Assembly: GCF_003032475.1 (NCBI RefSeq)
Contig: NZ_CP028369.1
Coordinates: 5,084,001 to 5,148,000, forward strand
DNA from: Streptomyces sp. P3
GTDB lineage: Bacteria; Actinomycetota; Actinomycetes; Streptomycetales; Streptomycetaceae
DNA length: 64,000 bases
Direction: 5' to 3'
Shown here: positions 21,544 through 26,785 of the stretch, in pieces
Layout: every line of letters begins with the position of its first letter
How positions within the stretch are numbered: position 1 is the stretch's first letter
Program-made: the position numbers and the translations under genes
Notes under the pieces: generated by a model
What the model was told of the DNA's origin: nothing
The model's database searches: none
What the model saw: the letters and a program-made list of their open reading frames with translations, nothing else

Positions 21544-22416
21544 TTACGCGCCGTCGGCGATCGCGGCGATGTAATCCGATGATTCCCCGGGCGAAAGGGC
21601 GTGCGCCCGAAGGGCGTTGAAGGCCTGGGCGTAGGCCTGGAGGTCTTCTTTCCGTTCGAGATAGAGGCTACTCGTCAAGTGGTCGAGAACAACCACATCC
21701 AGATCAGAAGTGCGCGAAAATGAGAAGATAACGAAAGGGCCGGTTACCCCGATATGCGCACCCGCGGTGAACGGCAGCACCTGAAGGCTCACTTGCGGCA
21801 AACGGGAGGCCTCCGCCAGCCGTCGCAGTTGTCGCGCCATCACCTCGGGGCCGCCCACCTCGCGGCGCAGCACCGACTCGTCGAGCACCGCGCTCAGCTC
21901 CAGCGGCGGCTGTGCACGCAGCACGTCCTGGCGGGCCAGCCGCACCTCCACCAGGGTGTCCAGCTGGTCCTCGTCGAGGCCCTCGACGGCGGCGCCGGTC
22001 ACCGCGCGCGCGTACTCGGGCGTCTGCAGCAGGCCCGGCACCACGGTCGTCTCCAGGGTGCGCATCGCGCTGGCCTGGGACTCCAGGCTGATGAAGTCCC
22101 GGTAGGCCGGCGGCAGCACCCCACGGTAGGCGTGCCACCAGTGGTCCCGGCCGCCGCCACCGCCGGCGTCGGAATCGGCGCCCGCCAACGCCAGCATCAG
22201 CTCCCGCAGGTGCGGATCCGCCACACCATAGGCGTCCAGGAGTAACCGCACATCGGCCGATTTCGATCCACTGACGCCGGTCTCGATGCGGCTCACCTTG
22301 GACTGGTGCCACCCGACGAGCCGGGCCGCATCACCACTGGTGAGACCCGCCTGGGCGCGTAAAGCGCGCAGTTCGGCGCCCAGCTTGCGGCGGCGCACCG
22401 CCGGTCCGTGCTGCAC
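21544..22416 (-). CDS. XRE-family regulator with DUF5753 (WhiJ/Scr1-like)
   Basis: A 290-residue regulator. The N-terminal Cro/CI-type HTH (LGAELRALRAQAGLTSGDAA, HQSKVSRIETG) is followed by a DUF5753 sensing domain starting near FISLESQASAMRTLETTVVP. That domain contains GLLQTPEYARAV, VEVRLARQ and LQVLPFTAGAH. Such proteins work with a DUF397 protein and often an RsbW-like ATPase in development and metabolism. Both partners flank it here. The ATG is at 22416, with a promoter region shared with the ATPase gene. Confidence 0.93.
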   Translation of the reverse strand: MQHGPAVRRRKLGAELRALRAQAGLTSGDAARLVGWHQSKVSRIETGVSGSKSADVRLLLDAYGVADPHLRELMLALAGADSDAGGGGGRDHWWHAYRGVLPPAYRDFISLESQASAMRTLETTVVPGLLQTPEYARAVTGAAVEGLDEDQLDTLVEVRLARQDVLRAQPPLELSAVLDESVLRREVGGPEVMARQLRRLAEASRLPQVSLQVLPFTAGAHIGVTGPFVIFSFSRTSDLDVVVLDHLTSSLYLERKEDLQAYAQAFNALRAHALSPGESSDYIAAIADGA

Positions 22417-22629
22417 GGGCTCCTCCTTACTCCTGACAGGCCGGCCAAATACGCTCTGTCGTCGCAGAGTTCACCGCATCGGGCGACAGATATATGCACA
22501 TCCTGGTGGATCGCCACCCGTGACCGGCGTGGTGATGGCAGTCTGGCGAAGAAGCACCAGTCCGGGACCGTACTCGAACCATCCACACCGTGTCGGGCTC
22601 CGGTCCCGTGGGAAAGGGACGACGTCGCC

Positions 22630-23112
22630 ATGGCAGACCACCTGGAAGCAACCCTCACTCTGCCGAGCGATCCCGCCTCGGTCTCCACGGCCCGGGCCTT
22701 CGTGGCCGGCGCCCTCGGCGAGTGGGGCCTGCCCGCGGACGCCGAGGCGGCCGACACCGTCCGTCTGATCGTCTCGGAACTCGCCACCAACGCCGTACAG
22801 CACACCTTCGGTCAGTCACCCACCTTCACGGTGGACCTGGTCCTCGACCGCGAAGAACGGCTGAGCATCGGCGTCACCGACAGTCATCCGCGCTTCCCGC
22901 AACGACTGCCGGCCGCCGTCCAGCAGGACAACGGCCGAGGCATGGTGATCATTCGCTGGCTGACCGCGGAGGCCGGCGGCAGACTCAGCGTGCGGCCCAC
23001 CCGGGAGGGCGGCAAGACGGTCGTCGTCGAGCTCCCGTGGACCGTCCCGGTGGCGGAGCCGGCTGCCGGGGTCCTGGCGGTCCCGGCGGAGGGTGAGCTC
23101 CCGGGGCGGTGA
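22630..23112 (+). CDS. Anti-sigma-factor-like ATP-binding protein (HATPase/RsbW type)
   Basis: A 160-residue HATPase_c protein. The N box is RLIVSELATNAVQHT, the G1-like box is IGVTDSHPRFP and the G2 box is NGRGMVIIRWLT. It has no kinase or receiver domain. Family members bind ATP and phosphorylate or sequester anti-anti-sigma factors. It is divergent from the XRE/DUF397 pair; the three make a set found in many copies in streptomycetes. ATG at 22630 is preferred because coding similarity begins at ADHLEATLTLPSDP. Confidence 0.9.
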   Translation: MADHLEATLTLPSDPASVSTARAFVAGALGEWGLPADAEAADTVRLIVSELATNAVQHTFGQSPTFTVDLVLDREERLSIGVTDSHPRFPQRLPAAVQQDNGRGMVIIRWLTAEAGGRLSVRPTREGGKTVVVELPWTVPVAEPAAGVLAVPAEGELPGR

Positions 23113-24283: not shown

Positions 24284-24589
24284 TCAACTCCCGGCGAGCG
24301 GCGGCAGTGTGACGCGCGCCGTGCGGCGCTCCCCGTCCAGGACGCGCAGCGCCCGCGCGAGCGTCGGCGCGTGCAGCTCGCTCTCGCCCCGCTGGTGCAT
24401 CAGTGTCAGCGCGTCGCGCAGCGCGGTCGCCTTGCTCACCAGTGCCTGGGCGGCGCGCAGTCCGCGGTAGGTGTCCCCGTGGTGGGCGGGGTTGATGCGG
24501 CCGAGCATGTCGACCACGTCGAGGTATCCGTCGATCAGCTCGGCCTCCGCGCGGGTCAGCGCGGGCAGCGGCGGCAGTTCGGGCACCAT
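24284..24589 (-). CDS. Hypothetical protein downstream of the ClpP-like gene
   Basis: A 101-residue soluble, mainly helical protein of unknown family. It begins MVPELPPLPALTRAEAELID and includes LGRINPAHHGDTYRGLRAAQ and an Arg-rich LARALRVLDGERRTARV. Its Shine-Dalgarno overlaps the stop codon of the ClpP-like gene (7-base gap), so they are co-expressed. It may be a partner or adaptor of that protein. No catalytic motif is visible. Confidence 0.8.
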   Translation of the reverse strand: MVPELPPLPALTRAEAELIDGYLDVVDMLGRINPAHHGDTYRGLRAAQALVSKATALRDALTLMHQRGESELHAPTLARALRVLDGERRTARVTLPPLAGS

Positions 24590-24596
24590 CGCGGGC

Positions 24597-25232
24597 TCAC
24601 CTCCCGCCCTGCGCCCCGGCGGACGCCTTGCGGCTCGGGACGATCCCGTCCACCAGGCCGTACGCCACCGCTTCCGGGGCGGTGAGGAACGTGCCCCGCT
24701 CGATGTCCGAGGTCACCTGCTCCGGCGTCCGCCCGGTGTGCCGCACGAGCATCCCCTCCAGGGCCGCACGGGTGCGGGCCAGCTCCTCGGCCCGGAGGGC
24801 CAGGTCACTGGCCTGGCCCTCGACGGGTTCGGGCAGCGACGGCTGGCGGACCGTCATCCGCGCCCCCGGCAGGGCGAACCGCTTGCCCGGCGTGCCCGCG
24901 GCCAGCAGGACCGCGGCCGACGTGCCCGCCTGCCCCAGACACGTCGTCGACACGGCGCAGGTGACGAACCGGATCGTGTCGTACAGGGCCGTCATGGCAC
25001 TGAACGAGCCGCCGGGGGAGTTGATGTACAGCGCGATGTCCCGGTCCGGGTCCCTGTGCTCGAGGTACATGAACTGGGCCGTCACGTCGTTCGCCGAGAC
25101 GTCGTCGACCGGGGCGCCCAGGAAGACGATCCGCTCCTCCAGCAGCTTCGCGTACGGATCCATCGTGCGGTGCCCCGAACTCGTCCGTTCGGTGAACTCG
25201 GGCAGGACATGGCGGGCGGACGGTCGCTGCAT
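24597..25232 (-). CDS. ClpP-fold protein lacking the catalytic triad (ClpP5-like)
   Basis: A 211-residue ClpP homologue. The fold is well preserved: [61 protein letters not shown] and [16 protein letters not shown] all align with E. coli ClpP. Every catalytic residue is replaced: Ser (GQAAS) is Thr104, His (MIHQP) is Arg129, and Asp (ERDRF) is Gly180. A neighbouring Ser105 is shifted by one. The protein should not be a peptidase. It may form heteromeric rings, like cyanobacterial ClpR, or act as a structural decoy. From memory, its synteny matches the solitary fifth ClpP of S. coelicolor/S. lividans. It is co-transcribed with the 101-residue protein. Confidence 0.9.
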
Positions 25233-25269
25233 GGGTGCCCCCTCCTTCTACGTCTGGCACGTCTGTAAT

Positions 25270-25305
25270 AAATGTACAGGACGTACGTGACGTTAGAATG
25301 GGGTC
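25270..25305 (+). promoter_or_regulatory. Leaderless promoter with palindrome in front of the Phd-like gene
   Basis: A -10-like TAGAAT (25294-25299) is followed by six bases and then the ATG at 25306. Just upstream, TGTACA (25273-25278) and the palindrome ACGTACGT (25281-25288) could form the autoregulatory site. They lie in the 73-bp gap shared with the ClpP-like gene. No convincing -35 was found. Confidence 0.45.
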
Positions 25306-25584
25306 ATGGCCTACGAGATTCCGGTGACGCAAGCCAGGGCTGAACTCGCCGACCTGATCAACCGCGTGGTGTACGGCGGTGAGCGCGTCGTCGTGACCCG
25401 GCACGGCAAACCCCTCGTCGCCCTCGTCTCCGCCGCCGACCTCGAACGACTGGACGAACTGGACCGTCCGGCCGAGGAGCAGGTGATCCGCTCGGTCTCC
25501 GCCGTGCGTGAGGTCGCCTCCGCTCCCCGCGAACAGCAGCGGTTCGGGATCGCCGCGGAACATCGGGGGGTCGGCCCGTCGTAG
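25306..25584 (+). CDS. Phd/YefM-family antitoxin, no toxin alongside
   Basis: A 92-residue Phd/YefM protein. The N-terminal dimer/DNA-binding region reads EIPVTQARAELADLINRVVY, followed by the hallmark ERVVVTRHGKPLVALVSAAD. The C-terminal tail, which normally wraps a Doc or RelE/YoeB toxin, is VREVASAPREQQRFGIAAE. No toxin gene follows; a hairpin terminator lies 20 bases downstream. It may be an orphan autorepressor, a regulator of the divergent ClpP-like gene, or an antitoxin to a distant toxin. Confidence 0.88.
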   Translation: MAYEIPVTQARAELADLINRVVYGGERVVVTRHGKPLVALVSAADLERLDELDRPAEEQVIRSVSAVREVASAPREQQRFGIAAEHRGVGPS

Positions 25585-25603
25585 GCGCGAAGGGGCGCGC
25601 GAA

Positions 25604-25631
25604 AGGCCGTGCGCTCTGAGACGCACGGCCT
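25604..25631 (+). terminator. Hairpin terminator after the Phd-like gene
   Basis: A perfect 10-bp stem (AGGCCGTGCG with CGCACGGCCT) and an 8-base loop sit 20 bases after the stop codon. No T-run is present. Confidence 0.75.
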
Positions 25632-25740
25632 CGAAGTGCCGCTCGGGTGGTCGACGACGCGCGGCCCGACGACGAACACGGCCGCGCGCGTGGGCCCGGG
25701 GCGCCGGTGCGGAAGGTCGTGCGCCGCGCCCGGGCTCCGT

Positions 25741-26080
25741 TCAGGCGGCGATCGCCGGCTCGCGTTCCCGCGCGGCGGCCGCGTCCGCCGGTGCGGGCCC
25801 TGACCGCAGGCGGGCGCCCAGCAGGACGGCCCCGAGGCCCAGGGCCGCCCAGCAGGACAGAGTGAGCGCCGGACCGGTCGCCGCGGCGCCGTCGAAGAAC
25901 GCCACCGAGCGCAGCAGGGTCGTGCCGGCGCCCGGCGGCAGCCACTGCCCGATCACGCCGACCGGCTCGGGCAGCATCTCGGGGGCCGAGGCGGCCCCCG
26001 AGAACGGGTTGCCCAGGAACATCACCACGAACGACCCGGCGCCGATGCCCGGGGGGCCGAGCAGCGCGGCGCAACCCGCC
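25741..26080 (-). pseudogene. Integral membrane protein, C-terminal fragment only
   Basis: The minus-strand frame ending at TGA 25741 carries the last part of a multi-pass membrane protein. It reads AALLGPPGIGAGSFVVMFLG, NPFSGAASAPEMLPEPVG, WLPPGAGTTLLRSVAFF, then a final helix and a polar tail. Proteins of this kind in streptomycetes have several hundred residues, with helices before this point that are absent here. An ATG exists at 26097, but the upstream sequence belongs to another gene fragment. Homology ends at about 26071-26085. The gene was probably regulated by the TetR protein that is also broken here. Confidence 0.6.
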
Positions 26081-26350
26081 GCGGAGACGCTGCGCAACGA
26101 GGAGCTGTCGGGGATCCTGCGCGAGGGCTACGGCGGTGTGCGCGAGGCCCGGGCGCGGATCGTCGTCGCCTACCAGGACGCGGGGACGATGCGATCCGAC
26201 GTTTCCCCGGACCATGTGGCCCGGACAATGATCGCCACCGTCCTGGGTTTCATCCCCCAGCAGTCGCTGTTCGGCGCCGCGCCCGTCGAGGTGCTCGGTG
26301 ACGGGCTGCGCGCGTTGATGAGCGTGTCGCCCCCGCTGCCGCCGGCCTGA
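26080..26350 (+). pseudogene. TetR-family regulator, C-terminal fragment only
   Basis: The plus-strand frame ending at TGA 26348-26350 reads AETLRNEELSGILREGYGGV, REARARIVVAYQDAGTMR, then SPDHVARTMIATVLGFIPQQ and GDGLRALMSVSP. This is typical TetR C-terminal ligand-binding sequence. The DNA-binding N-terminal half (~100 residues) is missing. The frame upstream is the reverse complement of the membrane-protein fragment. The 5' break coincides with that of the divergent membrane gene. Any product would not bind DNA. Confidence 0.65.
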
Positions 26351-26482
26351 GTGATCGCAGCTTGCTTAACTTGCTCGAAATGCGGCCCAACTAGCCTGCC
26401 GATCCATGCCACCAGGGGCGTTCCCCCGTGGCCGCGGCCAACCGGGCCCCGCACGGTCCGGAGCGAGGATGTGAGGTGGGAC

Positions 26483-26785
<303 letters not shown>

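Follow-up and report, generated by a model that had tools for sequence, protein, structure and literature searches.

Graded erosion of the catalytic triad in ClpP5, a putative ClpP2-type subunit encoded beside a conserved small gene in Streptomyces

The clpP5 locus and the identity of its product

The window (the whole stretch of DNA that was analysed, 64,000 nucleotides in length) carries on its minus strand clpP5 (24597..25232), which encodes a ClpP-fold protein of 211 amino acids recognised by its ORF, by Pfam and by phmmer against PDB sequences. AAGGAGG stands 5' of its ATG. A second minus-strand ORF (24284..24589) lies 7 bp past the clpP5 stop and encodes a protein of 101 amino acids, referred to here as the partner, the Shine-Dalgarno-like GGGAGGTGA of which overlaps the clpP5 stop. 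Divergently from clpP5, on the plus strand (25306..25584), lies a gene for a 92-amino-acid protein of the Phd/YefM-type antitoxin family, the proposed regulator, which belongs to this family by its matches to PF02604 (E 4.1e-14) and TIGR01552. The intergenic region contains a putative operator-like stretch with no strand assigned, CTGTAATAAATGTACAGGACGTACGTGA (25263..25290), recognised by the conservation of the divergent intergenic region and holding TGTAAT, TGTACA and CGTACG with centres 9 bp apart. Farther along the plus strand, an ORF between the Phd-type gene and urease (25508-26347) has weak TetR C-terminal matches below the cut-off and is perhaps the remnant of a regulator; the urease gamma subunit gene (26351-26785, plus strand) adjoins the module and was seen by eye also near two further loci (L178 and L188). 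On the other side, a HATPase_c_2 protein is encoded at 22579-23109 (plus strand), divergently from an HTH/DUF5753 regulator (21547-22416, minus strand; both by Pfam), a pairing that is common in Streptomyces.

The ClpP fold of ClpP5 is evident from its match to Pfam CLP_protease (PF00574, E 4.5e-61), and among the ten NCBIfam models listed for it PRK12553 alone passes the cut-off (249.4 vs. 228 bits). The best PDB sequence match is ClpP2 of Mycobacterium tuberculosis (E 1.2e-67, phmmer), with the chains of which residues 3-205 of ClpP5 pair gap-free. Codon reading combined with this alignment puts Thr104 (24921..24923), Arg129 (24846..24848) and Gly180 (24693..24695, all on the minus strand) at the positions of the catalytic Ser, His and Asp, respectively; the Ser-His-Asp triad is absent. 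The residues that we take to be catalytic in ClpP2 agree with the quoted E. coli numbering. The first-pass annotation had placed the same three replacements in a ClpP fold, as the gap-free alignment bears out; the strand, absent from that claim, is minus. In the AlphaFold2 model of ClpP5 the mean pLDDT is 74.4, with residues 1-31 below 50. Foldseek ranks chains of the mycobacterial ClpP1P2 complex first (top match 5dzk, TM 0.80), and identity to chains of the Clp complexes from M. tuberculosis and S. hawaiiensis is 52-56%.

The genome of the window (G000, 9.85 Mb in one contig) yields five ClpP matches, namely two pairs and the single window gene, which the tree described next assigns to ClpP5, making it this genome's fifth ClpP and a member of neither pair. 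In a paralogue tree of 60 rows (20 of them ClpP5; rows hand-picked or random, S. lividans ClpP5 not among them) ClpP5 forms one group (support 99/96), and ClpP1 and ClpP3 are separated from ClpP2, ClpP4 and ClpP5 (100/100). ClpP2 and ClpP5 group together with a support of 95/79, a ClpP4 plus ClpP5 clade not being rejected as the alternative (p-AU 0.14), and the tree program flagged long branches (ClpP4 against ClpP1/ClpP3). ClpP5 is classified, on this phylogenetic footing, as a ClpP2-type subunit.

Erosion of the triad and selection across the genus

The distribution of the altered positions was followed in 199 Streptomyces genomes evenly drawn across the genus. Taking best matches down to about E 4e-76 as the ClpP5 set, 147 intact copies were extracted, one of which (L095, G131) has no clear start; the other 52 genomes may hide divergent copies. 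The first-pass annotation had raised the question of whether the triad loss is fixed in Streptomyces, and the answer is negative: erosion is graded and repeated. The full triad is present in 57 of the 147 copies, one position is changed in 51, two in 35 and all three in only 4 (the window copy and those of G013, G092 and G150). Ser is kept in 114 copies and lost in 33, His is kept in 67 and lost in 80, Asp is kept in 127 and lost in 20. Among 80 named loci, which are the best 80 of 536 relatives and hence biased towards the query, the triad is intact in 40 and completely lost in none; the ClpP5 of 14 of these loci recurs with identical sequence in the genus sample. Triple loss is exceptional and not a property of the family.

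The replacements of the His are diverse (Gln, Arg, Glu, Ser, Asp, Thr, Lys and Gly). On the best ClpP5 tree, computed without the three triad columns and with 53 of its 148 inner branches weak, at least 18 changes between canonical and non-canonical residues are needed for Ser, at least 9 for His and at least 12 for Asp, gains being indistinguishable from losses in this count. When the 211 positions are ordered for conservation by entropy, the Ser, His and Asp columns take ranks 127, 179 and 117, respectively, and near-invariant residues stand in their neighbourhood (G100 in 147, R125 in 145, Q130 in 145 and R179 in 146 of the 147 copies); positions 103 and 105, which flank the Ser, also vary (ranks 167 and 187 of 211). 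His loss went in the same direction as Ser or Asp loss on the ClpP5 tree, the association not being significant.

As controls, the paralogues were read at the same positions. The Ser-His-Asp triad is found in 24/24 rows of ClpP1, 24/24 of ClpP2 (both from 24 hand-picked genomes) and 31/31 of ClpP3. In ClpP4, Gly replaces the catalytic His in 31/31 rows, one of which also has Glu for Asp; the ClpP3 and ClpP4 rows are best matches from 30 genomes, with the window's own genome represented twice. The ClpP4 of the window genome (C1:9422542-9423084; L003/L004/L267) has the His to Gly change, as in 29 other genomes.

The search for ClpP4 at an E value of 1e-90 gives no match in 78 of the 147 genomes with ClpP5, 62 of which have lost the His of ClpP5. 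This residue is kept in 51 of the 69 genomes with ClpP4 vs. 16 of the 78 without it (Fisher p 5e-11); on the tree, only five well-supported independent pairs are available, in which the sign test is not significant. That a retained His in ClpP5 goes with ClpP4, taken to indicate ClpP3P4, is a lead only. The number of ClpP matches per genome had been tried as a proxy for ClpP4 (51/72 vs. 13/68, 7 left out) and was dropped, as there are five-match genomes, such as G004, without ClpP4.

ClpP5 might still be a protease that cuts by means of other residues, for instance a displaced His or Ser105, which adjoins the lost nucleophile and which, if aligned in the active-site geometry along with another His/Asp, would overturn the claim of the first-pass annotation. 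We consider this highly improbable. The Ser position is flanked on both sides by conserved stretches, which do not permit the register to slip so as to bring Ser105 to the nucleophile, and such a shift is rejected; nor are Ser and Thr enriched at 105 where Ser104 is lost (14/33 copies without vs. 48/114 with Ser104). A His occurs at position 196 in 46 of the 80 copies that have lost the catalytic His and in none of the 67 that keep it, which would suit a displaced His; the window protein, however, has Gly196, and the pattern may merely mark a clade.

Selection was assessed by omega (Nei-Gojobori) in 226 sequences, with 2396 pairs of dS 0.1-1.2 out of 2419 pairs at 80-98.5% identity, pairs that are not independent of each other. 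The median omega of clpP5 is 0.256 where the triad is intact in both members, 0.262 in mixed pairs and 0.270 where it is changed in both; in the same pairs the median is 0.152 for the partner gene and 0.198 for the Phd-type gene (2083 pairs). Changed-triad copies are under nearly the same purifying selection as intact ones. That the frame is conserved under purifying selection without catalysis, as first suggested from the window alone, is supported by the 147 orthologues and by the omega of the changed-triad pairs. The view of the family as plain pseudogenes was dismissed for most copies, given an omega of about 0.27 where the triads of a pair are changed.

The partner gene, the Phd-type regulator and loci without clpP5

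The partner gene is present in all 147 ClpP5 genomes. In 146 of the 147 loci a script finds it as the next, co-directional gene, and in the last (L095) it is also adjacent by a separate reading. The gap between clpP5 and the partner gene is 7 bp in 96 of the 146 loci and 3-14 bp in most (range 3-246), and a Shine-Dalgarno-like motif touches the clpP5 stop in 83 of 146. Of the 199 genomes, 13 hold the partner but no intact ClpP5, and 39 lack both. The partner is found in 74/150 genomes of the family (9/17 genera), in 109/147 genomes of the order, all within the genus of the window (1/5 genera), and in 10/148 genomes of the class (2/81 genera; one of the ten being a partial match). G487, from another actinomycete family, has the partner without a ClpP5 or Phd match within 7 kb; its homologue (L336, 3236-3568) shows 55% identity.

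No Pfam or NCBIfam model matches the partner of the window, and 42 members of its family have no Pfam family common to more than two of them, even at E 1. Its predicted fold consists of three helices (mean pLDDT 61.7), with no structure match at E <=0.001 and no PDB sequence match. PADLOC gives no match for ClpP5, the partner or the Phd-type protein.

A divergent Phd/YefM-family gene stands upstream in 132 of the 147 ClpP5 loci, within the locus DNA examined. TGTACA occurs in 153 of 153 divergent intergenic regions (2.1 expected and 7 at most in 200 letter shuffles); since these regions share ancestry, the result is one of conservation and not of independent events. The 153 are the loci with 31-249 bp between the genes, out of 172 with a divergent Phd-type gene, and comprise 133 distinct sequences (68 regions from the genus sample, 72 from the named loci, the remainder from other genomes of the family). 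In 130 of the 147 genus loci a 10-base operator core lies no more than 1500 bp upstream; in the other 17 it was not found there. The 17-base form occurs without mismatch in 116 of the 199 genomes, once in each, vs. 0 for the reversed control; the operator of the window, with a single mismatch to this form, falls outside the 116. AATGTACAGGACGTA has one exact copy in the genome of the window, and a genome-wide search for further copies gave four sites with two mismatches, vs. 5 for the reversed control.

Detailed reading covered ten of the 13 partner loci without an intact clpP5, G106, G147 and G159 lying outside it. In seven inspected loci clpP5 is broken or absent. In G107 (L178) clpP5 survives as an N-terminal match and what looks by eye like a C-terminal remnant, with the Phd-type gene, the operator and the partner present; G087 (L188) has these three and no clpP5. 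The partner is kept beside clpP5 fragments or none in G169, G171 and G186, and clpP5 matches fall in two frames in G196 and G144 (a draft error being possible for G144). In these seven partner-keeping genomes clpP5 is therefore dispensable. As for the other loci, G061 has the partner without a clpP5 or Phd match in 6.5 kb, the partner locus of G191 is near a contig end, and in G016 a ClpP2-type gene occupies the clpP5 slot beside the partner. G292 carries a further copy of the partner, in a cassette with a Phd-type gene, an operator and a ClpP2-type gene (Ser-His-Asp); in this cassette and in that of G016 the Phd-type gene lies about 1 kb from the ClpP gene. The cassette ClpP of L337 (G016) and L339 (G292) is ClpP2-type with an intact triad, and not ClpP5. 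The linkage of clpP5 to the 101-residue gene, claimed in the first-pass annotation, thus holds in every ClpP5 genome and at all 147 loci; its further suggestion of a partner specific to ClpP5 stands as to linkage and fails as to exclusivity, the gene persisting without clpP5 and adjoining a ClpP2-type gene in two genomes.

These losses bear on the window copy itself, which may be en route to loss: selection for catalysis would have gone first, with a His to Arg change in its clade, and the whole protein would now be relaxed. Changes do pile up in its lineage, the window having Thr-Arg-Gly and its sister (L007) Pro-Arg-Gly at the triad positions, while the ten near relatives listed all have Ser-Arg-Asp or Ser-Arg-Glu. 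The window and sister clpP5 genes show an omega of 0.61 (dN 0.022, dS 0.036; few changes, and outside the dS range used above), the corresponding values being 0.14 (partner) and 0.06 (Phd-type gene); G107, whose partner shows 97% identity, retains a clpP5 remnant only, and the gene is broken or absent in other lineages. On the other hand, the mean identity of the window ClpP5 to six outgroup rows (77.9%) lies within that of the ten relatives (72.0-82.2%) and reveals no overall speed-up, its frame is intact with a GC3 of 0.948 vs. a family median of 0.936, and it departs at no position that is >=90% conserved in the sample. On balance we regard impending loss of the window copy as a real prospect, though a rather unlikely one.

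A proposed docking ring and its relation to known Clp systems

The Clp machinery of Streptomyces is described as among the most complex in bacteria in PMC12607617, which in the parts covered gives ClpP5 no role. In the Streptomyces ClpP1P2 protease, ClpP1 is reported to cut and the ClpP2 Ser to be dispensable in assays; ClpX, ClpC1 and ClpC2 dock on ClpP2, and the first pocket Tyr of ClpP1 is tied to the action of acyldepsipeptides (ADEP) (PMC9765437, main text). The corresponding pocket of the window ClpP5 is ClpP2-like (Ala67, Tyr69 and Phe89). Tyr69 is found in 147/147 ClpP5 copies, Ser67 in 109/147 and Phe or Tyr at 89 in 128/147; Ala, Tyr, Phe is the commonest pattern of ClpP4 (14/31 rows). 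The ClpP1 of the window genome (L001) has Asn at pocket position 67 and not the ADEP-linked Tyr.

We propose, with somewhat less than even confidence and from sequence comparison, that ClpP5 may supply an alternative docking ring without catalytic function, probably one that serves ClpP1, together with the partner and under the control of the Phd-type protein. A ring-partner role, one of those offered by the first-pass annotation, is plausible. As a P2-type subunit largely released from catalysis, it would most likely form a ring, alone or mixed with ClpP2; this ring would pair with a catalytic ClpP1 ring and offer an alternative surface to the Clp-ATPases. In the 78 genomes without a ClpP4 match, ClpP1 and ClpP2 are left as its likely partners. 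The protein encoded directly behind clpP5 possibly modifies the ring, and the Phd/YefM-type protein probably controls expression at the putative TGTACA operator. Since a P2-type ring can do without catalysis of its own, the Ser, His and Asp codons would be free to drift, with the fold, the N-terminal segment and the pocket residue Tyr69 retained. Several observations weigh against the docking ring. The gene is dispensable in the seven partner-keeping genomes in which it is broken or absent. The copies with a full triad imply that some ClpP5s may still cut; ClpP2 retains its triad in all rows though its Ser is dispensable in assays, and docking alone therefore does not explain the drift; of the three pocket positions only Tyr69 is invariant, the window having Ala67; and the omega of the window and its sister is high, albeit from few changes.

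Two other roles were weighed. An extra ClpP, ClpP-ADEP, is reported to block ClpP1 tetradecamers and to form a new core with ClpP2 (PMC12607617, main text), and ClpP5 might similarly act as a modulator, binding to ClpP1 or ClpP2 and thereby restricting or diverting the assembly of tetradecamers; ClpP-ADEP, however, is placed there closest to ClpP1 and reported to act with ClpP2, whereas ClpP5 is P2-type, and we hold this role to be improbable. The other stems from the first-pass annotation. ClpP is an antibiotic target, and a protein that retains the ClpP fold could act as a decoy for the Clp-ATPases or as a sink for ClpP-binding antibiotics. The sink found no positive evidence and is weakly excluded by the ClpP2-like pocket, which has Ala67 in place of the ADEP-linked Tyr of ClpP1 (PMC9765437, main text), a weak argument in that this Tyr is also missing in 9 of 24 ClpP1 rows, including that of the window genome; decoy and sink alike seem to us very unlikely.

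A broader extension of the docking ring, which we put forward as speculative and unlikely, is that Streptomycetaceae exchange the ATPase-docking ring of Clp through a switch under Phd control, its cassette encoding a P2-type ClpP without catalysis and a ClpT-like partner; the ClpP slot would have been occupied on at least two occasions, by ClpP5 as well as by a ClpP2-type protein. The Phd/YefM-type protein, perhaps itself a Clp substrate, would repress the cassette of ClpP5 and partner, and upon a change in Clp capacity a differently docked ClpP1 core would be built.

ClpP5 itself is a known paralogue, and inactive ClpP proteins are known in the form of ClpR. As far as the open-access literature was searched, neither titles nor abstracts reported that ClpP5 or ClpP4 of Streptomyces lose triad residues, and this may already be in print; what was consulted of PMC12607617, PMC9765437, PMC9775585 and PMC4989188 does not mention it. 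To the same extent, the genus-wide erosion, the His to Gly change of ClpP4 and the cassette of Phd-type gene, operator, ClpP5 and partner are unreported in that literature. The data suggest a division of labour in which ClpP1 and ClpP3 cut and ClpP2, ClpP4 and ClpP5 dock; they catch the erosion of a ClpP active site at many stages across one genus, and bring an unstudied partner and regulator into view.

The window ClpP5 resembles S. lividans ClpP5 in being the fifth ClpP outside two pairs, an equivalence by gene arrangement and not by sequence. The clpP5 of S. lividans is called monocistronic in the main text of PMC9765437, whereas that of the window has the partner gene directly 3'. The ClpP5 of S. 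violaceoruber NRRL S-981 (L122), a strain that we take to be close to S. lividans, keeps the triad that the window ClpP5 has lost. ClpP2, of Streptomyces and of M. tuberculosis, is in the same clade and provides the best PDB match, and differs in the retention of Ser-His-Asp in every row. ClpP4 is, like ClpP5, of the P2-type clade with its active site lost; it has one shared loss and stands beside clpP3, while ClpP5 has many different losses and a partner gene of its own.

The Phd/YefM domain and the TGTACA core are both also features of YefM/Phd autoregulation in the parts of PMC7730913 and PMC3303803 covered. The operator palindromes of yefM-yoeB are, according to the former, 12 bp apart from centre to centre, as against 9 bp here. 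YefM/Phd toxin-antitoxin loci have an adjacent toxin gene; here Pfam recognises no toxin family in the five ORFs between the Phd-type gene and urease gamma, and the 101-amino-acid protein might conceivably be a toxin of an unrecognised type. Plastid ClpT, in the part of PMC7966870 consulted, is a small protein thought to act with the ClpP core, and a likeness in role to the partner would be a guess by analogy. ClpR of cyanobacteria and plastids, presented there as a triad-less ClpP homologue, is the counterpart of the likewise triad-less window ClpP5; ClpR is a core subunit defined by the loss of the triad, whereas the ClpP5 family is only partly eroded.
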